From: a virus | Length of the DNA: 22,307 nucleotides | Virus record (IMG/VR): IMGVR_UViG_3300030099_005031 | Location: 1-22,307 of that record | Reading direction: 5' to 3' (one strand) | Part shown: piece by piece, positions 7,001 through 16,591 of the stretch | How the letters are laid out: each line of letters opens with the position of its first letter | Numbering within the stretch: position 1 is the stretch's first letter | Position numbers and translations under genes: made by a program | Notes under the pieces: model-generated | Databases searched by the model: none | What the model was told of the DNA's origin: nothing | What the model saw: the letters and a program-made list of their open reading frames with translations, nothing else

Positions 7001-9131
7001 AGTAAATAGATTAACGAGTTACGTAGAAAACTATAAGTTTTACAGTAAGTTGTTAGAAGTAAATAACGAACCCGGAGAGAGGCTTTTTACGGAGTTTAGA
7101 ACTAAAGATTACAACACTCCCGTGCCATTAGAAGACTCTCCTATAGACGGTATGTACACAACCCCTGCTGTAGCAGAGGCTTTGCAATTAGTAAAACAAG
7201 ATAAGTCTTCTTTAAAGAAAGCTTACGATGCTATGGTGTTGTTACCAAAAGGTATCGTGCAATCATTTAAAACTATCTTTAGCCCCATGGCACAGGCTCG
7301 TAACTTCTTAACTGCCAATATGTTTTACCTAGGTAACGGGCACATTAATTTATACAAAGACTTCCCGGCTGCAATGAAGGTGTTGCGTTCAGAATTATTT
7401 AGTTCTGGTTTTGATTCTATGGGGAGAGAAACTTCGGCAAGAATAAAATCAGAAAACCTGTATCAAGAGATGTTAAGGCTTGGAGTAATTAACACTAACT
7501 CAAGATTAGGAGAGATACTACAAAACTTTGAAGAGGGCGCTTCTGGTGGCTACAGAAGTATAAACGAGTTTATGTCTTTCTTAACCTCACAAAATGGAGG
7601 TTGGGCAGGCAAACCAGTTTCTTTAGCTAAGAAGATTGGACGACAGCCTGCAAAACTTTACACAGCAGCAGATGACTTTTACAAGATAGCTGCTTTCTTG
7701 TCAGAAAAAAGAAAGTTAGAACGAGCGTATGACAACACAGACATAGGTAAAGAAGGTCTAATAGATTTTGGTAAGCAGATAGGTAGAACACTTACCAATC
7801 AAGACTACGACAAGATGATAACTGAAATAGCTGCGTACAAAGTGCGTAACACTATACCTAATTACGATTACATAGGGTCTTTCGTAAACATGTTGAGACA
7901 AACCCCATTTGCTCCGTTCGTAGCTTTTCCAACAGAAATTTACAGGACTAGTTACAACATGGCAGATTTAGCCTTAAAAGAAATTAGATCCGGTAATCAT
8001 CAGATGAAAGTACAAGGGTACCGTAGATTGTTTGGTTTGGGCTCAATGACCTTTGGACTATCCAGCATTATGGTAGCTTTAGGTAAGGCTTTGACTGGAG
8101 CAGATGACGAAGACATAGAAGACATTAGAAGAATGGGACCAGAGTGGTTAAGGAGAAGCCAGATAATACCTGTAGAAAAGAAAAAAGATGGTGGCTACGA
8201 ATACATAGACGGCAGTCACTTTTTTGTATACGACACCGTTTCTTCCATACCGTTAAGTTTTGTTAGAGCTCTTAAAGAAGGACAAAATCTAGATAAGGGT
8301 ATACCAGAGTCGATTAGAGAAGGCATGGTTGATGGGGTCTCAGCTGTAGTAGAACCGTACATAAGTTTGTCTATAGCGCCTGAATTAATTGTTGAAATGT
8401 TTCAAAACAGGAAAGCAGACTCAGGAGCACCTATAGCTTCAACAGAAGATGCCTTCGGAGAACAAGCTAAACAATATTTAGATTATGCTATTCAAAAAGC
8501 TCAACCGGGTTTTATGCAACAGATAGGTAACTTATTAAATGCCGGAACCTTTGATGAGCACTCGTTCTCTAAGTTTGGTACTAAACAAGATTTTGACGGA
8601 GCGTTTTTAAGTTTAGTTGGCGTTAAAATAAATACGGTGGATCCAAATAAGTCCATACCGTTTAAGATAACCGAAGCTAAAAAACGTTTGGCTAACGCAG
8701 AAAAAATATTTGAAAGATTGGCTTTGCAGTCGGGTCCTGTGTACGCTCAAGATTTAGTTAATGCCTACGTAAGAGCACAAGAGGCTTACTTTGATGTGCA
8801 AAGAGAACTTGCTTTAGATATAAAAGCGGCTAGAAATTTAGGCGTTAGTAGAAGTATTCTTGCAGAAAATATAAGAAGGCTGCCTAGCAAAGCCTTAAAA
8901 AACAATATCCTTAGATATAGGTTTGTACCTTACGTGCCTCCTAAAACATCCATGCGTAAATATAATTTAGCTACTAAAAAAATGAAACAAGAAGGCGCAG
9001 AGGTATCTTTAGAAAGATATTATCCATTTACCACTATTGGTAAAATAGAAAGCTTTTACAAGAGAGCAAGATTAAATCTATTCTTTGACTTTATCACTCC
9101 TGATTTTACGGATCTTGAGCCTCGCGAATAG
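4074..9131 (+). CDS. Giant ejection/polyvalent-like virion protein (1685 aa)
   Basis: The size, position after lysozyme and virion genes, and composition suggest a protein packaged in the capsid and ejected with the DNA, like podovirus internal proteins. This is inference. Domains seen: a short charged N-terminal helix (SLEELQQGY to EEYLRLL); a Gly/Ala-rich hydrophobic module (about 115-165); GALDTAALAFG (about 196-206); AEGTTEASQEV (255-265); a long charged coiled-coil middle; and a C-terminal part from about 1060 with SPMAQARNFLTANMFY, NTIPNYDY and a hydrophobic helix near 1320 (GLGSMTFGLSSIMVALG). That last region resembles 'large polyvalent protein' associated domains (LPD38-like, from memory). 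I see no lysozyme, ADP-ribosyltransferase or protease motif. The start is GTG at 4074, 8 nt inside the previous gene. GTG at 4083 is an alternative, with AGG (4072-4074) better spaced from it. The 3' end overlaps the opposing nuclease gene by 26 bp. Confidence 0.8.
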   Translation: MPSVSLEELQQGYLDGDLSREEYLRLLENLRANPTAIEPTDEQAGFWDTLFQSTQQLIATGGAGIRVLGEAFDNEALQNYGDEVVRNREAQIAKYGKPMQIEDIEGVGDAAEWLFTSAIPQVIPSIIASVPLAIGGAFAGKAALGTAVAARVGGALGAFLPSSFLGAGEIDREMKRRAGDGFEDPAAALGGGAIIGALDTAALAFGLKGVIPQITKNTPLQKDTVRALTKELVDKGVEINVATRGVAQGILAAIAEGTTEASQEVVNDLVAESSTGITQDEQEMSSALLNSFALGLVGGAPIGYFAGNKAAKTQRDNIETEKEAQRLRQEAKEETTQFLIDENVANLNIDDLRKFATRYKGTNLDLTKSGPEIVEQIREQEEAQRATSKLKRRAVEMGLPELAKFDLENLELARIEEELTPMEIINAVRRIDPEFDVTGPGSVRRAAERLASFNISTAFINTGKSKLLFNPYTFDKYKEILKTQSKEELAVEASTLLPNKYLTIDEARNTPTEVLAKDLAENQYWIQQAQENMNYKEKQTPAPIEVTEGQDYKVKTETINIDDPKRGEALGFTVAMKDEDGNRTGDIVKFEKKEVRDDNDNIIDYEYVSEYGETFSEFQTNYPMQMETKQDVDELGREQYEIISYDVYKGKYPQFQEGPFKKIYSTVMNLFSPYAPLGDRAFLLDRERISNQRAINKAAQMLAYAYEEAANAAVLNGQIENRAMADEMVLDFLKKSYTRKKGDDNVSLILQGEITKLETELQTTTNEVRKAALQRNIADLKKDLADGLRVDVVALKDLPENLQGVAVQMRTLIDTLSERVLSEMPDSILDKPDPVTKETKRDIIKAQLGSYVTQSYKLFEPTLGWNPSRTFFGKRSKEQQAAFNTAVEYVLNNKQSFPTVVDRKSAEDKVNDIIKQSLREDDVPIELQSADGRRTKDKFSKVSPISQFLKPRDSIPQEFKALFGEFKNPAEILATTVNRLTSYVENYKFYSKLLEVNNEPGERLFTEFRTKDYNTPVPLEDSPIDGMYTTPAVAEALQLVKQDKSSLKKAYDAMVLLPKGIVQSFKTIFSPMAQARNFLTANMFYLGNGHINLYKDFPAAMKVLRSELFSSGFDSMGRETSARIKSENLYQEMLRLGVINTNSRLGEILQNFEEGASGGYRSINEFMSFLTSQNGGWAGKPVSLAKKIGRQPAKLYTAADDFYKIAAFLSEKRKLERAYDNTDIGKEGLIDFGKQIGRTLTNQDYDKMITEIAAYKVRNTIPNYDYIGSFVNMLRQTPFAPFVAFPTEIYRTSYNMADLALKEIRSGNHQMKVQGYRRLFGLGSMTFGLSSIMVALGKALTGADDEDIEDIRRMGPEWLRRSQIIPVEKKKDGGYEYIDGSHFFVYDTVSSIPLSFVRALKEGQNLDKGIPESIREGMVDGVSAVVEPYISLSIAPELIVEMFQNRKADSGAPIASTEDAFGEQAKQYLDYAIQKAQPGFMQQIGNLLNAGTFDEHSFSKFGTKQDFDGAFLSLVGVKINTVDPNKSIPFKITEAKKRLANAEKIFERLALQSGPVYAQDLVNAYVRAQEAYFDVQRELALDIKAARNLGVSRSILAENIRRLPSKALKNNILRYRFVPYVPPKTSMRKYNLATKKMKQEGAEVSLERYYPFTTIGKIESFYKRARLNLFFDFITPDFTDLEPRE

Positions 9132-9831
9132 TGTCCATAACCTGATCTGCCCAATACTTATCTACACGCTCCATCCACATGTCTGCATGACGTCTAAACT
9201 CTCTGCCTTGTATGACAAACTCTTGATACACAAGATCGACGGAACACATTAAGACAGCACCTTTTTGTATGTCTGTGCCATACAGCTCGTTGTGCGCAAG
9301 AGCATACGCAGCAAGCTGACAGAAATAGTCTTCTATCCATTCACGTCGTTTAGGTTTATTGGTCTGTTTAAAATCCATGATGCAAGGCTCGTCCTCAAAC
9401 ACACCGATAACATCAGCTTTACCTGCGTATCGATTTGGATTGTACAAAGACACCTCACAGCCATAGACCTGATTTATCCTAGAAAAAGAGTTATCCATGA
9501 TGGTACATGCCATCTTGTATGCTCTCTTCTCTTCAGCTGTTTCAGGTCTATAGTCCCACAAATTACCATGCACTATCTGTTTCTCTAGTATGTGATGCAC
9601 GGTGGTACCGCGAGCAGCCGCCTCCATGCGTATCCTATTGGCTTCTTCCTCACCAACACGTTCTATCCACTTCTTTATCCCGTCGTTATCTTCTTTCGTC
9701 CCGGATAATATCGTAGTAACAGAAGGCAGCTTTACACCGTTACAGTCATAAAACCTTCTTCCGTCTTTGCCGTCCTCACTAGAGAAGTCATTGTATTCGT
9801 ACGGTGACTCGTACAAGATTACATGCTTCAT
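9106..9831 (-). CDS. PD-(D/E)XK exonuclease, RecB/Cas4-like (241 aa)
   Basis: This is a predicted metal-dependent DNA exonuclease of the RecB/Cas4 nuclease superfamily. In phages such enzymes serve recombination, concatemer processing or host DNA breakdown. The motifs appear in canonical order: RGTTVHHILE (about 95-104, motif I His), YAGKADVIG (Asp of motif II), CIMDFKQT (Asp-x-Lys of motif III), and the C-terminal helix motif DYFCQLAAYAL (Gln-x3-Tyr). The N-terminal segment KLPSVTTILSGT is also typical of phage members. I see no Cys cluster for the Fe-S centre of classical Cas4/AddB. It is the last gene of the leftward replication operon. Its ATG overlaps the stop of the 56-aa gene (ATGA). 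Its own end runs 26 bp into the opposite-strand giant gene. Confidence 0.88.
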   Translation of the reverse strand: MKHVILYESPYEYNDFSSEDGKDGRRFYDCNGVKLPSVTTILSGTKEDNDGIKKWIERVGEEEANRIRMEAAARGTTVHHILEKQIVHGNLWDYRPETAEEKRAYKMACTIMDNSFSRINQVYGCEVSLYNPNRYAGKADVIGVFEDEPCIMDFKQTNKPKRREWIEDYFCQLAAYALAHNELYGTDIQKGAVLMCSVDLVYQEFVIQGREFRRHADMWMERVDKYWADQVMDTIREAQDP

Positions 9832-9998
9832 GTTTTTGGTAACTCTTCTACTTTGCCTTTTTTCACGTCATCGTGTAGACGCTTAATTGCAAAAGCAAAA
9901 ACGTTACTGGTAGATCTTTCAGTTCGCTTACCTATATCTTCAGCGATCTTAACGATCTCCTTACGTATGGCTACGCTACGCCATTTTTCTGTATCCAT
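9828..9998 (-). CDS. Small ribbon-helix-helix DNA-binding protein (56 aa)
   Basis: This short gene sits between polymerase and nuclease. The protein opens with MDTEKWRSVAIRKEI and reads as a beta strand (about WRSVAIR, residues 6-12), a first helix (KEIVKIAEDIG), and a turn plus second helix (RSTSNVFAFAIKRL). This is the Arc/MetJ/CopG ribbon-helix-helix pattern. Such proteins bind DNA as dimers, with the strands in the major groove, and usually act as repressors. AAGGAG stands 10 nt before the ATG and overlaps the polymerase stop. The stop TGA overlaps the nuclease ATG. It may autoregulate the operon or the divergent control region; AT-rich dyads there are candidate operators. The fold is inferred from pattern only. 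An accessory subunit role with the nuclease cannot be excluded. Confidence 0.7.
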   Translation of the reverse strand: MDTEKWRSVAIRKEIVKIAEDIGKRTERSTSNVFAFAIKRLHDDVKKGKVEELPKT

Positions 9999-10012
9999 TT
10001 TACTGAACTCCT

Positions 10013-11884
10013 TTAATCATTATCGTTTTGTGACTCCATAGAATCACCCCAGTTTTTGCCTACCTCTGCGTCTACCTTATTAGGTACACACAAAGACACA
10101 GCTTGTTCCATGGTTTCAGTTATGCCTGCTACATCTTTATCCGAAGCTACAGAAAACACAAGCTCGTCGTGCACCTGTAGTAACGGCATGTAACCAGACT
10201 GATAACAGTCGACCATGGCCTTCTTTGTCATATCCGCCGCCGAACCCTGTATAAGTTTATTCAGCGCCTTATAGACAAATGCTCTTTTTATTTCGCCGTT
10301 GTATTCGTGTATGGCTTCTTTGTATTTCATGGGTCGACCCGTGCCATAGCGCATCGGCTCCCACATATCAAAGTGACAACGACGTCCTAATAGTGTTTTT
10401 ATATATCCTTTTGAGCTAGCACTTCTCATAACAGAATCTGCTAACTGTCTAACAAAAGGAGCGTAGGTATTGAACTTACTAAGTATGTCAGCAGCTTCGT
10501 CAGTCGTTACACCCAACTGATCTGCTAATTTACCCTTGCCCATACCGTACATAATTCCTAGACCAATAGTCTTTGCGGTCTTTCTATCTATACCCACCAG
10601 ATTGGCTACCTCTTGGTGAAAGTCTGCATCTCCTTCTAAGTACGCATCGGCAATAGCATCTGCGCCATCGTACTTAGACAAATTAGCATAGTGAGTAAGT
10701 ATTCTTGGTTCCTGTTGACTAAAGTCTGCTGAACACCAGCGCTCGCCTTCTTCTGGCAAGAACAAAGAACGAATCAACGGACCTATGTTTTTGTTTCGTG
10801 CCGGGACCTGTTGCAAGTTTGGATTGCTCATGGACAACCGACCAGTGACTGTACCACCGCTCTCGCCTTTCAGCTGTCTTATCTCTGCGTGTATCCTGCC
10901 GTTGTGCTCGTGCTTCAGGATAGAGTCGATAAACGTGCTGTGCGATTTGTTTATCTCTCTAGCTTCTTTAATCATCTTAGCTACAGGATGTGTGTGATTG
11001 TCTAAAAATGCCTTGGTAAAACTAGGCTGCCCTGTTGGAGTACGTGTATACGTTAGCTTCAGGGCGTCAAAAACGGTCGCTAACGAGTTTGCTGCCCAAA
11101 GTTGCAGTTCTCCTACACCAGACTGTTTCTGTATCTCTAAGAGCAGTTTTTTCTCTTGTTTGATTAGCTGCCTCTTAATTGTCTCTGCTCTCTCAGTATC
11201 AACACGAACACCTTTCTTTTTCATTTCGTACAACACGGGCAAAACTTCCATCTCCAAATCAAAGATGTTCCACAGGTTCTGCTCTTCAATTAAAGTCTTG
11301 AAATGATTCCAAAGCTTCAATGTCAAAGCAGCGTCCTGTGTTGCATACGTACCTACGTATGCCGAAGGCAGACGCCACATCTCTGCTTTCGGGTCTAAGC
11401 CCCACTCCTCAGCAGCGGCGTTTAGTTCTGCCTCCGTTTTACCCTCGTTTACATATTCTCTACCCAAAGCATTTAAGGTGTACCAATACTGGTTCTCATC
11501 TATTAGAGGAGCAACCACCATCGTATCGATAATCCTGCCGTTTACTTTTATATCTTCTGATCCTAGCCAACCCATATCGTACGATGCGTTGTGAAATATT
11601 TTGTCTGAGTTACTAGCGCATACTTCCTTAGCAAAACTAATTACTTTGTTTTTAGGAAAGTTAAATCCACTCTCGTGCGCAAACGGAAAGTAGCCTTCAA
11701 AGCCATCGCAAGCAAACGATATGCCCACTATCTCTCCGTCACCTCTTATGTATCCGGGACCTTTCTCTTTTAGATTCGGGTCTCTGGTTTCTGTATCTAT
11801 CGCTACCTCTTTTGCGTTGACCAACAGCTCTGTTGGAAACACATCAGGCGGAGTCCATTCCGTAGGTGGTTTAAATGTTGTCAT
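10013..11884 (-). CDS. polA: DNA polymerase I (family A) with 3'-5' exonuclease
   Basis: This 623-aa replicative polymerase has a proofreading domain and no 5' nuclease domain, the usual phage form. Exonuclease motifs: D30-x-E32 (AIDTETRD), N99-x3-D103 (HNASYD) and Y180-x3-D184 (YATQD). Polymerase motif A is SADFSQQEPR (D387). Motif B is RKTAKTIGLGIMYG (R434, K438, Y446). Motif C is QVHDEL (H572, D573, E574). The residue aligned with E. coli Phe762 is Leu442. In motif A the usual Ile-Glu-Leu reads Gln-Glu-Pro. There is no CxxCxGxG (DnaJ-type) insertion. The ATG overlaps the helicase stop by 4 nt (ATGA), and the stop overlaps the Shine-Dalgarno of the small RHH gene. It acts with the upstream primase, helicase and putative SSB. 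Confidence 0.97.
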   Translation of the reverse strand: MTTFKPPTEWTPPDVFPTELLVNAKEVAIDTETRDPNLKEKGPGYIRGDGEIVGISFACDGFEGYFPFAHESGFNFPKNKVISFAKEVCASNSDKIFHNASYDMGWLGSEDIKVNGRIIDTMVVAPLIDENQYWYTLNALGREYVNEGKTEAELNAAAEEWGLDPKAEMWRLPSAYVGTYATQDAALTLKLWNHFKTLIEEQNLWNIFDLEMEVLPVLYEMKKKGVRVDTERAETIKRQLIKQEKKLLLEIQKQSGVGELQLWAANSLATVFDALKLTYTRTPTGQPSFTKAFLDNHTHPVAKMIKEAREINKSHSTFIDSILKHEHNGRIHAEIRQLKGESGGTVTGRLSMSNPNLQQVPARNKNIGPLIRSLFLPEEGERWCSADFSQQEPRILTHYANLSKYDGADAIADAYLEGDADFHQEVANLVGIDRKTAKTIGLGIMYGMGKGKLADQLGVTTDEAADILSKFNTYAPFVRQLADSVMRSASSKGYIKTLLGRRCHFDMWEPMRYGTGRPMKYKEAIHEYNGEIKRAFVYKALNKLIQGSAADMTKKAMVDCYQSGYMPLLQVHDELVFSVASDKDVAGITETMEQAVSLCVPNKVDAEVGKNWGDSMESQNDND

Positions 11885-13437
11885 ATTAAGTACCTGTAGT
11901 ATTCGTTTCTAGCCTGCACGATGTAGAGATTCTCTAATGCTCTGGTAACAGCCACATAAAACTGTCTGTGTAAGCCATCTGGGTTGAGCAAAAAGTTTTG
12001 CTTTATCGCCGGAGATATATCTAACAAGACTGCAACGTTGTCAGCCTCACCACCTTTTGCTTGGTGTATTGTAGATATCGCTATCCTCGGTTCGCCATGT
12101 AAATCTTCGTTATTGTTTTTTGCTTTTTCTATAAATGCTCTTCTTTCTACGTCTATGGTTTTATTGAAAGTCTCCTGCCAATCGCCGCCCAAGGTTTCTT
12201 CCTTCAAACCGTAGTTGTCTAATATTTGTTGTTTAGTTAGTTCTTGCCCCTTGTTTTCATCGTTTAATACTTTAGTTATAAATCCTCTCTTCACATGCGC
12301 TTTGCCTAGATAAGCATATAAATCACCGAGTTGAGCCATAGTAAGCACTCCGTCACTGTTTAGTTTCTCCCAAGCGTCCATGGCTGCAATCATCTTGTAC
12401 GGAATATATCTGTAGTGATTGTGTGAAAAGGGGTAGCCGTGGTTTATCAAATGCTTTCTAGTGCTGTAGCCTTTGTTGTAATCGGACAACATGTAGTCGC
12501 AAGACGATAGAATCAACCAGTTGCCTTCTTCTAACGGCAACAGGTTAACAGAAGATACTTCTGTCACTGCGCCTTCTTGCTCTCTTGGTTTGTACTCTTT
12601 GTCCGCTCTCTTTCTTATCTTGTTTGATATGCGCTCTGCTACGTTGTGTACGGTCTTTGGTATTCTGAAAGACTGATTCAGTACAATGTTCTTGCCCTCA
12701 TAATCTACAAACCTGTCTGGTCTGGCTCCGCTCCACTCGTAGATAGCCTGATCGTCATCGCCTGCTATGTAAGTCTTAGCAACGTTAGCAGACAATACAT
12801 CAACCAAACGCCAGTTTAATTCTGCCAAGTCCTGAGCTTCATCAACGATAAGAACATCTAACGGTGGACAAAGGCCTCTCTCAACAAACTCTTTTATCAT
12901 GTCAGCAAAAGAATAAATAACAGGAGAGCTTTGCGTGCGATACTCTTCCCATGCGTCGTAAAGATTTTTTAAGATAACAGGTACTACATTCTTGCGTAAA
13001 GCTACGTCGCAGTTAAGTCTTTCTTCTTCAATATCTCTACAGTTTGCTTTTGAGTTTTCTATCAGTTGGAAGTATGGATCTTCTAGCATTTTATCCAGCG
13101 ATTGTCTTTTATCCATTTTGTAATTCTTGGTTAAATTGAAGCTGTACTCTTCTAAAAAGTCTCGGATATCTTCGCCTGACATTACTCTGCCTATGGCTAA
13201 CACGCGCTTGCAGAAGGCGTGACTTGTGCAGAAGTAAGGCATTTCATCAAAACCAAGCCCCAAGGACGCGTACGCCCTGTTTTTAGCTTCTGTAGCAGCT
13301 TTTACTGAGTAAGATATAAAAGCTATTCTGTCTGGCTGCACACCGTCATCTAGATGCTGCTCTACCAAATCAAGCAGCTTAGTTGTCTTGCCCGTTCCCG
13401 GAGGACCAAAGAACTTCTGTATGTTTCTAATCTTCAA
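11881..13437 (-). CDS. SF1 DNA helicase, UvrD/Dda-like
   Basis: This is an ATP-dependent DNA helicase for the phage replication fork or recombination. Motifs, numbered from the GTG at 13446: Walker A GPPGTGKTT (14-22), Walker B VDEAQD (201-206), motif III GDDDQAIYEWSGA (229-241), motif IV QSFR (258-261), motif V ISTIHQAKGGE near 460, and motif VI RQFYVAVTRALE near 500. At about 520 aa it is compact, lacking the large 1B/2B insertions of full UvrD. Two starts are possible. GTG at 13446 has no usable Shine-Dalgarno. TTG at 13437, chosen here, has AAGGAG 8 nt upstream and forms the 4-nt TTGA overlap with the primase stop, the arrangement seen elsewhere in this operon. The choice changes only three residues. 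Confidence 0.95.
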   Translation of the reverse strand: MKIRNIQKFFGPPGTGKTTKLLDLVEQHLDDGVQPDRIAFISYSVKAATEAKNRAYASLGLGFDEMPYFCTSHAFCKRVLAIGRVMSGEDIRDFLEEYSFNLTKNYKMDKRQSLDKMLEDPYFQLIENSKANCRDIEEERLNCDVALRKNVVPVILKNLYDAWEEYRTQSSPVIYSFADMIKEFVERGLCPPLDVLIVDEAQDLAELNWRLVDVLSANVAKTYIAGDDDQAIYEWSGARPDRFVDYEGKNIVLNQSFRIPKTVHNVAERISNKIRKRADKEYKPREQEGAVTEVSSVNLLPLEEGNWLILSSCDYMLSDYNKGYSTRKHLINHGYPFSHNHYRYIPYKMIAAMDAWEKLNSDGVLTMAQLGDLYAYLGKAHVKRGFITKVLNDENKGQELTKQQILDNYGLKEETLGGDWQETFNKTIDVERRAFIEKAKNNNEDLHGEPRIAISTIHQAKGGEADNVAVLLDISPAIKQNFLLNPDGLHRQFYVAVTRALENLYIVQARNEYYRYLI

Positions 13438-15038
13438 TCTTCCCACTCCTTCTTAGCTGTAGGGTTTTTAAAATCATCTACAGTAATCTTACTGTTATCT
13501 ACTTCGACAACATCTAACACCCAAATGTTTTTGTTGCCTATGTTCTTGTCTATCCATTTAACTGAGTTGTTTGCTCCCATGTTCTTTAGTTCGTCAAAGA
13601 TCTCTGCTTCTTTTATGTTCTTCATGTTTTTGTATTCTCTAATGTAGTTGACTATGTCTCTGCCTCTAAACCACCATTGATTAGTTTCTTCCTCCTCCAT
13701 ACGAAAAGCTCCGCCAGATACGATGGCCATACGAGAAGTAGACTCTGTGGTAATACAAAACTCCATGATAGATTCTTCAAGCAACCCACTCTTGGTCATG
13801 TCAGCAGGCACGTCTATCTCCTGCACGTCCTGTAGCAATGCGTTTAGTTTTGCTACCCAATCTATTTTCTTCACGTCTGGTGGACAGATGTTTAATACTT
13901 CCATACATCTTTGTTGGTACATGCTGAAGTTGTGGAGTTGTTTTGTTTCAAGCACGATAGTCTGTCCGTCTATATCTAAGTGCCACAAGGGTGGGTCGGT
14001 TAGATATTTCCGTAGCCCACCAAAGACAGGATCGCGTTCTGCGGCATCGATGCCAAACCTTTTGGTTACACAGATGCCGCTCTGACAAAAGTCTTGTAGC
14101 GGAGCTTTGCTGCACGGATACCGATAGTCAGACTTCTCCACGCTTTGTATTAGGTTATTAACTTCGCTATGCGGTAGTGGTTTGGCGCAGACCTGCTTGT
14201 TTACTTCTTGCAGCTTATCTTTCCACTCTTCGCCCTCCGGGTGTACTTTTCTAAAGAACACACCGTAAGCAAACATAGCACTGTTGCGCATACCTTCAGG
14301 TATGCCGTTCAGCTTCATGTGAACCAGACAAGGTGGAGCCTCGCTCCAGATGTCTTTGTCTGCGCCGTTAGATGCGATAAGTTTTCTCCTAGATTTCTTT
14401 ACCGGGAGGAGCTCATCTAATTGTTCCTCTGTGATTGCTTTACGCTTTGCATACTTTATAAAGTCTTCCGAGGATAAAGACTCTGCTTTTTTATTCAAGC
14501 CGTATCTGGTTGTATCGTCGCCTGCAAAGTACGGCATGTTCAACCAGTTACCTGTCTGTTTTTCTTTGGGTACTTGGTCGGACCATTGATATTGTTTCGG
14601 AAATATCTCATCTCCAGTTCTGCCCATGGCTGCTGTAATGTCCTCTAGTTTATTTTTTATTTTGATGGCTGGGACAGGCTCACTTGTAAAAAGGAATAAG
14701 TGAAGCCCGCCCGACTTAGTAGAACAAGCGACCAAGGGCAGAGACATCTCATCGATGTTTTTTAAAATCTTTTTTATGTCGATAGGGTATTCATCTATAT
14801 CTATGCAGCCCCATCTACATGTTTCATCATCGGTTATCGGAATCACTCCGATAGAAACCTCTCCGTCTAAATGTTTTTTCCAAAGCTCAAGAGTAAGCGG
14901 TTCATGCAGGGTCTTTGCTATCCCGTCTTTCTTTACTCCGCGTGCTGTGTTCTTCTGCCCTGTGATTTCATATATTCCGTGCGCTCTGTCTAGCCCGGAA
15001 AAAACATCCATAAATTCTTTTTCTATTTCTTTTGTCAT
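13434..15038 (-). CDS. Archaeo-eukaryotic-type (AEP/TOTE-like) DNA primase with C-terminal Cys cluster
   Basis: This 534-aa protein probably makes primers for the phage polymerase. The N-terminal half has AEP hallmarks: CIDIDEY (D80-x-D82, metal site), a separate motif STKSGGLHLF ending in H113, and GNWLNMPYF (164-172), resembling the primases of TOTE-type and phage prim-pol families. The C-terminal half has APPCLVHM (C237), a helical segment, and then YPCSKAPLQDFCQSGICV (C309, C318, C323). Four such cysteines could bind Zn or an Fe-S cluster, as in the PriL C-terminal domain; this is inference. The last 180 residues are unassigned. There is no Walker motif, so the helicase is the separate downstream protein. 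The start lacks a good Shine-Dalgarno. A GC hairpin precedes it. Its stop overlaps the helicase start. Confidence 0.85.
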   Translation of the reverse strand: MTKEIEKEFMDVFSGLDRAHGIYEITGQKNTARGVKKDGIAKTLHEPLTLELWKKHLDGEVSIGVIPITDDETCRWGCIDIDEYPIDIKKILKNIDEMSLPLVACSTKSGGLHLFLFTSEPVPAIKIKNKLEDITAAMGRTGDEIFPKQYQWSDQVPKEKQTGNWLNMPYFAGDDTTRYGLNKKAESLSSEDFIKYAKRKAITEEQLDELLPVKKSRRKLIASNGADKDIWSEAPPCLVHMKLNGIPEGMRNSAMFAYGVFFRKVHPEGEEWKDKLQEVNKQVCAKPLPHSEVNNLIQSVEKSDYRYPCSKAPLQDFCQSGICVTKRFGIDAAERDPVFGGLRKYLTDPPLWHLDIDGQTIVLETKQLHNFSMYQQRCMEVLNICPPDVKKIDWVAKLNALLQDVQEIDVPADMTKSGLLEESIMEFCITTESTSRMAIVSGGAFRMEEEETNQWWFRGRDIVNYIREYKNMKNIKEAEIFDELKNMGANNSVKWIDKNIGNKNIWVLDVVEVDNSKITVDDFKNPTAKKEWED

Positions 15039-15084: not shown

Positions 15085-15864
15085 TTACTCCCAAGTTTTA
15101 GCTTCGGAATTATCCTCTAATGCAGCAGTATTGGAGCTCCCCGGGAGTTGATCCATACCACCGTCTGCACAAAACTCAGAAAACTCTTTTGCTTCTGTAA
15201 ACAAATCAGTTTCCTGTTCATCTAAGACCCGTTCCTGTGAAATGGAAAATGAATACCATGACCCACGATCGTTAGATTCTATTTGTGTCTTTAAAAGATA
15301 CCAGTGCGAGTATGAAGGAGGGGTAAACATACCCTGTGCTCCTTGCATTTTCGTACTCTGTATCAGTGTGTTGAAGTATCTAGAGTGCTTCAACTGTGAC
15401 CCCGTCATGTTGATGACGCATTTCTGCGGCTCTTCATCAATCATAGCGTAGCCATAGTGGTTAGCTGTTGGTGTAAGCTGAGTTTCACCTGCCGGTGTGA
15501 TAAGCCTACCTTGGCTATCACGGCTACATCTGTTGAACAGATCGCTATCAGCAGAGTGAACCTTAACTAGCCCACCGCCCTTCTCACGAAGTTTCCACTC
15601 GACCAACGTTTTGTTATACCAAACTGGTAAGAAACTCAAACCCGTCTCACCTGATATTATTTTGTTGGAACCAGTAAAAAAGAGATCTCCCTCTTCCGCA
15701 TCAGGATTATAGTCAGCGTTGTCTTTTTTCCTTTGCGGAGACATTGCCTGTATGATCGTGATACGCGGAGTCCTAAGATCGTCTGATGATACTTCGCCGA
15801 AGCCTTTCTCTTCGACACCTTCAAATAAAGATACTATGTCACTTTTTGGTTTTTTAGTTGCCAT
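15085..15864 (-). CDS. Putative phage ssDNA-binding protein (259 aa)
   Basis: I assign this as an SSB candidate mainly by context and family resemblance. It precedes primase, helicase and polymerase. It begins with a short polar tail, then TPRITIIQAMSPQ and EGDLFFTGSNKII, a pattern seen in a conserved phage family of about 250 aa found in replication regions. The middle is beta-rich with many aromatic residues (SFLPVWYNKTLVEW, YSHWYLLKTQI), as expected for an OB-type fold. The C-terminal 25 residues are disordered-looking and moderately acidic (ALEDNSEAKTWE), reminiscent of SSB tails. GAGGAA stands 7 nt before the ATG. No catalytic motif is visible. It could also be another recombination-associated protein. 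Confidence 0.55.
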   Translation of the reverse strand: MATKKPKSDIVSLFEGVEEKGFGEVSSDDLRTPRITIIQAMSPQRKKDNADYNPDAEEGDLFFTGSNKIISGETGLSFLPVWYNKTLVEWKLREKGGGLVKVHSADSDLFNRCSRDSQGRLITPAGETQLTPTANHYGYAMIDEEPQKCVINMTGSQLKHSRYFNTLIQSTKMQGAQGMFTPPSYSHWYLLKTQIESNDRGSWYSFSISQERVLDEQETDLFTEAKEFSEFCADGGMDQLPGSSNTAALEDNSEAKTWE

Positions 15865-15878
15865 ATCTTCGTTCCTCG

Positions 15879-16448
15879 TTATTTAGTTATTTTCGTTCGC
15901 TTGCCCTCGTAGACAGAGAAAAGTTCTCTGACTGCTTGGTCAAACACCTGATTGCCCGACTCAACTTGTTCGCGAACGAACGCCTTGAGCGAGCTAGGAT
16001 GGACATTCTCTTTCTGTTCAGGCAATAGCCCTTCCTTCTTGAGTACATCTATCACTTCTTTAGCGCGATCGTCCTCACCTCTGCCGAACTGCACGCTGAC
16101 GACATTCTTAATTAAGTCGCCATGGCCGTTCTCGCGGAGCCAACTGTGAGCCGCATCAGCTTTGTCTTTGCTGATACGAGCGCTGTAAAACGGTTCAGCT
16201 GCTATCCTCGATCCGTCGTTCAAACGAATGTCTTGGATACCTAGCTCTAATAATCTTTGGGGTATAACTTCTTCTGATAGTTCACGCTCTTGTTCTTTCA
16301 AGCGTTGTAGTCGGTCCTCTGTGTTTCCGATTGTGCCCTGTACGCGCAGAAGTTTGTCGCATAGTTTTGATAAATCGGCTAAATGATTTTCGTTGAGGTC
16401 TTCTACTTTCTTCTTTGTTTGTTCTTCAAATAATATTTCTATTGCCAT
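15879..16448 (-). CDS. Conserved phage coiled-coil protein of the replication operon (189 aa)
   Basis: This is the first gene of the leftward operon; its function is unknown. Residues about 10-62 are a charged coiled coil (QRLKEQERELSEEVIPQRL). They are followed by a small beta-rich part (IRLNDGSRIAAEPFYSARI) and a helical segment with WLRENGHGDLIKN and VSVQFGRGEDD. The C-terminus has HPSSLKAFVREQVESG. The last two blocks resemble a conserved phage protein found beside SSB-like genes in podovirus replication modules; I know of no assigned activity. AAGGAG (16459-16464 on the plus strand as CTCCTT) gives a clear start. The gene lies 14 nt before the putative SSB gene, so the two are probably co-expressed. 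Confidence 0.72.
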   Translation of the reverse strand: MAIEILFEEQTKKKVEDLNENHLADLSKLCDKLLRVQGTIGNTEDRLQRLKEQERELSEEVIPQRLLELGIQDIRLNDGSRIAAEPFYSARISKDKADAAHSWLRENGHGDLIKNVVSVQFGRGEDDRAKEVIDVLKKEGLLPEQKENVHPSSLKAFVREQVESGNQVFDQAVRELFSVYEGKRTKITK

Positions 16449-16475
16449 TATTTATTTTCTCCTTCGTTAGTGCGA

Positions 16476-16552
16476 GGTCTAGCAGGATCTATGAACATAA
16501 ATTAAACCCGACTGTCCTTGCTAGACCCCGGCTTTTAAAAAAAACCAGTCGG
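16476..16552 (-). promoter_or_regulatory. Interleaved inverted repeats, potential H-type pseudoknot in leader RNA
   Basis: Pair A: GGTCTAGCA (16476-16484) with TGCTAGACC (16519-16527), extended by GGA (16485-16487) with TCC (16515-16517) across a one-base bulge. Pair B: CCGACTG (16508-16514) with CAGTCGG (16546-16552). The order A-B-A'-B' is the H-type pseudoknot topology. The B arm at 16514 directly abuts the A' arm at 16515, which would allow coaxial stacking. The connecting loops are 18 and 20 nt. The element lies inside the predicted leader of the leftward replication mRNA, about 11 nt before its Shine-Dalgarno. The repeats are seen directly; RNA folding is inferred. They could instead act as DNA operators. 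Confidence 0.6.
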
Positions 16553-16553
16553 A

Positions 16554-16582
16554 TTGACATGAGTATATATTACTTTTAAAAT
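16554..16582 (+). promoter_or_regulatory. Sigma70-type promoter for the SNF2 operon
   Basis: A perfect -35 box TTGACA (16554-16559), a 17-bp spacer and the -10 box TAAAAT (16577-16582, 5 of 6) point rightward. The expected start is near 16589, about 43 nt upstream of the SNF2 ATG. It is the best host-type promoter in the window. Confidence 0.75.
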
Positions 16583-16591
16583 AAAAGGCAA
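16562..16591 (-). promoter_or_regulatory. Sigma70-like promoter for the replication operon
   Basis: Reading leftward: -35 TTGCCT (16591-16586, 4 of 6), an 18-bp spacer and -10 TATACT (16567-16562, 5 of 6). The expected start is near 16555, giving a leader of about 107 nt before the 189-aa gene. It is interleaved with the rightward promoter, so polymerase could occupy only one at a time. It is weaker than the opposing promoter. Confidence 0.5.
16573..16587. promoter_or_regulatory. AT-rich dyad over both promoters, candidate operator
   Basis: CTTTTA (16573-16578) and TAAAAG (16582-16587) are perfect inverted arms around AAA. The dyad covers the -10 box of the rightward promoter and touches the -35 box of the leftward promoter. 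A dimeric binder such as the 56-aa RHH protein could use it. AT-rich sequence makes chance dyads common, so this is tentative. Confidence 0.35.

Follow-up and report, generated by a model that had tools for sequence, protein, structure and literature searches.

In bacteriophage T4, the operator directly 5' of gene 32 comprises a pseudoknot and, 3' of it, an A+U-rich stretch of UUAAA repeats that exceeds 40 nt and covers the ribosome-binding site (PMC535899, PMC3014915); gp32 and gp43 each autoregulate via leader RNA structures (PMC3014915). Two other kinds of structured leader are also close to the locus described here: HK022 putL, a strong RNA structure of two stem-loops just downstream of a phage promoter and before a long operon, and the 5'-terminal stabilising stem-loops of the ompA/papA type, which are local hairpins. 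RNase E is slowed by base-paired 5' ends (PMC3997798).

We analysed a 22,307-nt stretch of viral DNA (IMG/VR record IMGVR_UViG_3300030099_005031, hereafter the window), for which an original prediction held that two interleaved inverted repeats in the leader of the replication operon can fold as a pseudoknot, and that the product of the second gene, a putative single-stranded DNA-binding protein (SSB), might feed back on it as in T4 gene 32. The repeats do lie in the predicted leader and exceed chance. The T4 gene 32-type feedback was not borne out: gp33 intervenes between the leader and the SSB candidate, relatives with that candidate are without the leader, and the SSB call is weak.

As in gene 32 of T4 and RB69, the 5' leader of the phage replication mRNA contains a potential H-type pseudoknot, after which comes an unpaired, A-rich ribosome-binding site. 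The T4 knot spans ~28 nt, however, whereas the knot here spans ~83 nt, its helices having 10 and 12 pairs and its loops being long. Where T4 has a UUAAA-bearing tract of more than 40 nt, this locus has a 24-nt tract, CACUAACGAAGGAGAAAAUAAAUA, and where the T4 operator adjoins the gene 32 ribosome-binding site, the next gene here is gp33. Because these two defining features fail, the leader should not be filed as T4 gene 32-type. The knot is not conserved in relatives that share the SSB candidate, and we regard the analogy with T4 gene 32 as weak. The position of the structure, just past a phage promoter and before a long operon, recalls HK022 putL; the helices here interleave instead of forming two stem-loops and so depart from the put layout. 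Like the ompA/papA type, it has an open ribosome-binding site and a stem that begins at or close to +1; with the predicted +1 at 16555, the stem would lie within a few bases of the 5' end. It differs in being a long-range pseudoknot helix, and a stabilising effect is here a proposal.

Layout of the leader and its operon

The repeat arms are present where they had been reported: arm A (GGTCTAGCAGGA, 16476-16487) with arm A' (TCCTTGCTAGACC, 16515-16527), and arm B (CCGACTG, 16508-16514) with arm B' (CAGTCGG, 16546-16552), zero bases separating B from A' and the loops measuring 18 and 20 nt by that count. When G-U pairs are permitted on the minus strand, which is the operon strand, the arms are longer than first given. 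Helix S1 then has 10 pairs (16546-16555 with 16505-16514, AAUCCGACUG/CAGUCGGGUU) and helix S2 has 12 (16473-16484 with 16519-16530, CGGGGUCUAGCA/UGCUAGACCUCG), and the minus-strand order S1, S2, S1', S2' is the interleaving of an H-type pseudoknot. By helix-geometry reasoning, this layout of stems and loops is sterically feasible. The features of the locus are listed below; L024 and L023 are the two nearest relatives.

16554-16582, plus strand: rightward promoter of the divergent SNF2-type helicase (TTGACA, 17, TAAAAT), predicted by consensus scan
16562-16591, minus strand: leftward sigma70-type promoter of the replication operon, predicted by consensus scan
16546-16555, minus strand: S1 5' arm, AAUCCGACUG, whose first base is the predicted +1, placed by a 6-nt discriminator after TATACT
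16548-16540 with 16536-16528, minus strand: competing hairpin CUGGUUUUU/AAAAGCCGG, the version of the window only
16531-16545, minus strand: loop 1, 15 nt, part of which can enter the competing local hairpin
16519-16530, minus strand: S2 5' arm, CGGGGUCUAGCA, with the same letters in L024 and L023
16515-16518, minus strand: linker AGGA, 4 nt, whose GGA, in the window and in L024, can pair with UCC and so lengthen S2
16505-16514, minus strand: S1 3' arm, CAGUCGGGUU
16485-16504, minus strand: loop 3, 20 nt, which varies more than any other part of the leader (13/26 alignment columns differ among the three relatives)
16473-16484, minus strand: S2 3' arm, UGCUAGACCUCG; three pairs change between G-C and G-U and one becomes C-A in L023
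16459-16464, minus strand: Shine-Dalgarno sequence AAGGAG of gp33, read directly and kept in L024 and L023
15879-16448, minus strand: operon gene 1, 189 aa, Pam3 gp33-like (PF23984, phrog_2378)
15085-15864, minus strand: operon gene 2, 259 aa, Pam3 gp34-like, candidate SSB (PF23977, phrog_2402)
9106-15038, minus strand: rest of the operon, with AEP-type primase, UvrD-like helicase, family A DNA polymerase, 56-aa ORF and PD-(D/E)XK exonuclease

The leftward promoter consists of TTGCCT (16591-16586), an 18-nt spacer and the -10 hexamer TATACT (16567-16562), and syntenic relatives carry a promoter of the TTGC/TTGA...TATA type in the equivalent position, with the divergent helicase on one side and the operon on the other. 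The -10 hexamer and its discriminator put the predicted start at about A16555, the first base of S1. A start downstream of 16508 would have told against a place for the repeats in the leader; the predicted start is upstream of that position, and the repeats fall within the predicted leader of the replication operon as had been claimed. The predicted leftward and rightward promoters overlap (16554-16591), so RNA polymerase at one should shut out the other.

AAGGAG starts 8 nt past the end of S2 and is unpaired with respect to both stems. Weak pairing of this Shine-Dalgarno sequence with the U8 of loop 1 is possible in the window, but sequestration of this kind was rejected, as L024 has UUUUAUAUAAAA there and the pairing is not kept. 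We also considered a leader peptide of 16 codons starting in loop 3 (AUGUUCAUAGAUCC..., 16447-16496, minus strand), whose stop overlaps the gp33 start. It was ruled out: every difference that separates the window from L024 within the frame alters the encoded residue, the frame is lost in L023, and a well-spaced Shine-Dalgarno sequence is absent upstream, so that the frame is probably a chance one. No terminator-like site was found at the leader in a search for an intrinsic terminator or attenuator.

The gp33-like protein is predicted to contain a long coiled coil and an alpha/beta domain, and a fold search with it gave no significant match. For the 259-aa candidate SSB, there was no PDB fold match below E 0.001; several weak fold matches are to RPA, SSB and MCM OB folds, so an OB fold is only weakly suggested. 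Its viral matches are mostly unnamed, two weak ones being called SSB, and the Pfam and PHROG families that it matches give no function. The primase (13434-15038, minus strand) is of the archaeo-eukaryotic type, akin to TOTE conflict system primases (PF22548). The 56-aa ORF (9828-9998, minus strand), which lies between the polymerase and the exonuclease, is without a Pfam match; it looks ribbon-helix-helix-like by eye and is a possible regulator of the replication operon.

Stability and conservation of the paired arms

The interleaved S1 and S2 helices have a summed stacking energy of -41.0 kcal/mol. In a scan for H-type pairs across 106-nt stretches on both strands of the 22.3-kb window, the S1/S2 site ranked first, with the runner-up non-overlapping site at -34.2 kcal/mol. 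When the leader was shuffled 20,000 times with its dinucleotides preserved, no shuffle reached -41.0 kcal/mol (best, -35.4 kcal/mol). The same leader site is also the top H-type candidate in L024 and in L023. Since both the shuffles and the rest of the window fall short of -41.0 kcal/mol, the repeats exceed chance, and they are stronger than first described.

The two helices do not stand equally well. S2 also occurs in the best knot-free folds, which leaves S1 as the doubtful helix, and S1 is rivalled for the same 5' bases by local hairpins (CUGGUUUUU/AAAAGCCGG in the window, CCGACU/AGUCGG in L024 and L023). With a crude pseudoknot energy (strict rules, 9.6 kcal/mol pseudoknot penalty), the energy of the knot is -24.6, -21.7 and -25.9 kcal/mol in the window, L024 and L023, as against knot-free minima of -28.7, -24.9 and -26.5 kcal/mol. 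If extra S2 pairs are permitted, the knot drops below the knot-free fold, and in the window loop 1 is then too short. By these crude energies the knot is about as stable as the best knot-free fold, above or below it depending on the assumption, and they cannot decide the fold.

A core-pattern search of IMG/VR found the leader in only two further contigs, L024 and L023, whose nearby coding DNA is ~98% identical to that of the window; the L023 leader aligns with the window at ~90%. A covariance model run against 24 related records recovered only these three known copies. A blastn search in phages gave nothing better than E = 4, and a pattern search of genome_contigs gave a single match, within chance expectation for 17 fixed bases. 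A looser S1-based pattern matched three more loci (L122-L124), in which the S2 arms are absent by eye, and Rfam gave no gathering-score match in the window and only chance-level weak matches for the leader. We scanned relatives by gp33 (10 loci), the helicase (11 loci) and the SSB candidate (13 loci), and by an alignment-based scan of the best 80 of 539 relatives. Among these 80, 73 other loci (some redundant) share the divergent helicase-operon arrangement, and none of the 73 has the leader or an equally strong knot. In relatives without this leader, the promoter-proximal slot contains a small accessory gene in some cases, and in others a short inverted repeat or hairpin, or just a short leader.

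In L023, two ORFs that are absent from the window stand between the pseudoknot leader and gp33. These extra ORFs and the leaderless relatives, which include those whose SSB candidates are 67-77% identical, indicate that the leader travels with the promoter and not with gp33 or the SSB candidate. The slot between promoter and gp33 contains differing small ORFs in L003, L013, L015-L017, L023, L028-L032, L034 and L036 and is gene-free in the window and L024.

Thirty-five of the sister-phage loci L054-L092 (20 distinct sequences) have an inverted repeat, CAACY-N3-RGTTG, that sits 7 nt past the -10 in 34/35 loci (in L061, for example, the repeat precedes the gp33 match at 2501 by ~55 nt). It occupies the same promoter-proximal place (~+2 to +14) of the same operon as the leader described here, just before TAACGAA...AGGAG, but has five pairs, a 3-nt loop, another sequence and no pseudoknot. 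Its stem letters are nearly invariant and its centre variable, a pattern that suggests sequence-specific recognition over mere pairing, and the repeat may serve as an operator in the DNA or as a hairpin at the transcript 5' end. In another sub-lineage, a leader hairpin upstream of gp33 reads AGCCU-GAAG-AGGCU in L096 and L105 and AGUCU-GAAG-AGACU in L101, a two-sided compensatory change.

The covariation alignment comprises three close sequences, those of the window, L024 and L023. Standard pairs fill 64/66 pair cells (97%), as compared to 26-41% when partners are slid. Four changes are one-sided and keep the pair, and two-sided compensatory changes number zero in the three-sequence alignment; a single S2 pair is broken, giving C-A in L023, and S1 loses one terminal pair. 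Columns vary less often in stems (6/44) than in loops (17/46; Fisher p = 0.015), and the share of changes that keep pairing (4/6) is no more than chance (p = 0.43). The opposite strand forms 20, 19 and 21 of 22 pairs in the window, L024 and L023, the L023 count comparing with 20 on the operon strand. Covariation in these sequences is compatible with either RNA or DNA as the working form, and with either strand.

Candidate functions of the leader

The element is a credible candidate for a control element, one that is specific to a single lineage made up of the window and its two nearest relatives. Our leading, tentative reading, to which we assign a probability of roughly 0.37, is that the ~107-nt leader acts in cis as an RNA structure placed at the very start of the replication-operon mRNA, most likely hindering 5'-end-dependent decay. 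The transcript would start near A16555 and its first ten bases would pair with 16514-16505 as S1; S2 would close the pseudoknot and the ribosome-binding site would stay open. A 5' end paired in this way would obstruct enzymes of the RppH and RNase E type at the entry step of decay; the 7-kb operon mRNA may then last longer, with the first gene still being translated. A 5'-end structure fits best because the fold is strong, starts at the predicted +1 and frees the ribosome-binding site, and decay protection leads among the mechanisms because 5'-end pairing slows RNase E. A role for the whole transcript is suited by L023, in which the leader stays 5'-terminal before a different first gene. The low variation of the stems relative to the loops counts for a 5'-end RNA structure, as does the finding that the sister group also has a potential stem where its transcript would start, at a fixed distance from the -10. 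Set against this reading are the small set of three close sequences with no two-sided change, one break and one end-pair loss, the more than 70 syntenic relatives that do without the leader, the roughly equal stability of knot-free folds by the crude energies, and the fixed stem letters and varying loop of the sister group.

An RNA form is unproven over a DNA form, since the opposite strand forms almost as many pairs and, in L023, more. The main rival to a 5'-end RNA structure, although we hold it to be unlikely, is that the arms are DNA operator half-sites for a phage or host regulator, the pseudoknot geometry being incidental. Half-sites CCGACT, AGYCGG and AGTCGG and a CTAG-centred pair can be read in the repeats, which adjoin the leftward promoter on its downstream side and the overlapping rightward promoter; the site spans ~+1 to +50 of the one and touches the -35 of the other. 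In L024 there is a near-palindrome, CCGACT-N14-AGTCGG, with an A/T-rich middle and a further AGTCGG 20 bp on, and the inverted repeat that the sister group carries in the corresponding position is nearly invariant apart from its variable centre. An operator would fit less well with the window, where the proximal copy is degraded (AGCCGG) and the distal S1 arm is kept, and where no second cluster of half-sites was seen. Interleaved repeats of 10 and 12 pairs also exceed what an operator needs, and the S2 changes are mostly of the G-C/G-U kind tolerated by RNA, a tendency that is not significant.

Another reading that we think improbable on balance is that the fold has no function, the spacer being newly acquired or fast-drifting in a slot that swaps genes and leaders, and the repeats deriving from a past duplication. 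This would account for a leader that is lineage-specific, fast-changing, absent in more than 70 relatives and without compensatory change, and L024 and L023 contain the direct repeat AGTCGG-N14-AGTCGG, as a duplication leaves. It would not account for two long interleaved helices beyond any shuffle or for stems that change less than loops.

A variant with RNA as the working form turns on the local hairpin that rivals S1 for the same 5' bases and may make the leader switchable. Pseudoknot and local hairpin could form a small RNA switch that sets operon stability or translation, recent and confined to one lineage, having arisen where sister phages carry their short hairpin; we judge this a decidedly unlikely arrangement.

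Autogenous translational control, in which the putative SSB or another replication protein would bind the knot and repress translation as T4 gp32 does, is more doubtful still. The precedent of T4 gp32 and gp43 (PMC3014915) argues for it, as does a replication operon whose potential H-type pseudoknot has an A-rich, unstructured ribosome-binding site on its 3' side. The SSB candidate, however, is gene 2, ~600 nt downstream (~1,000 nt in L023), and its proposed OB fold is only weakly suggested; relatives with 67-77% identical candidates manage without the leader, and only ~24 nt, with no UUAAA repeat tract, separate S2 from the start codon. Least probable is put-like antitermination, in which the nascent leader would bind RNA polymerase for read-through of the 7-kb operon: a strongly structured RNA of ~70-100 nt just past a promoter matches HK022 putL (PMC9378689), but putRNA is two stem-loops whereas the arms here interleave, no Rfam family matches, no terminator-like site was found on the operon strand, so that a need for antitermination is not obvious, and relatives have the same operon without the leader.

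The leader is at present a lineage-specific candidate with weak evolutionary support. Control of phage mRNA by pseudoknots is rare, and a 2010 review named the T4-type gene 32 element as perhaps the sole viral pseudoknot used in translation autoregulation (PMC3014915). If true, the leader would be a second, unrelated case, one that heads a whole replication operon, is small enough for reporter work and would be useful for the study of phage RNA regulation.
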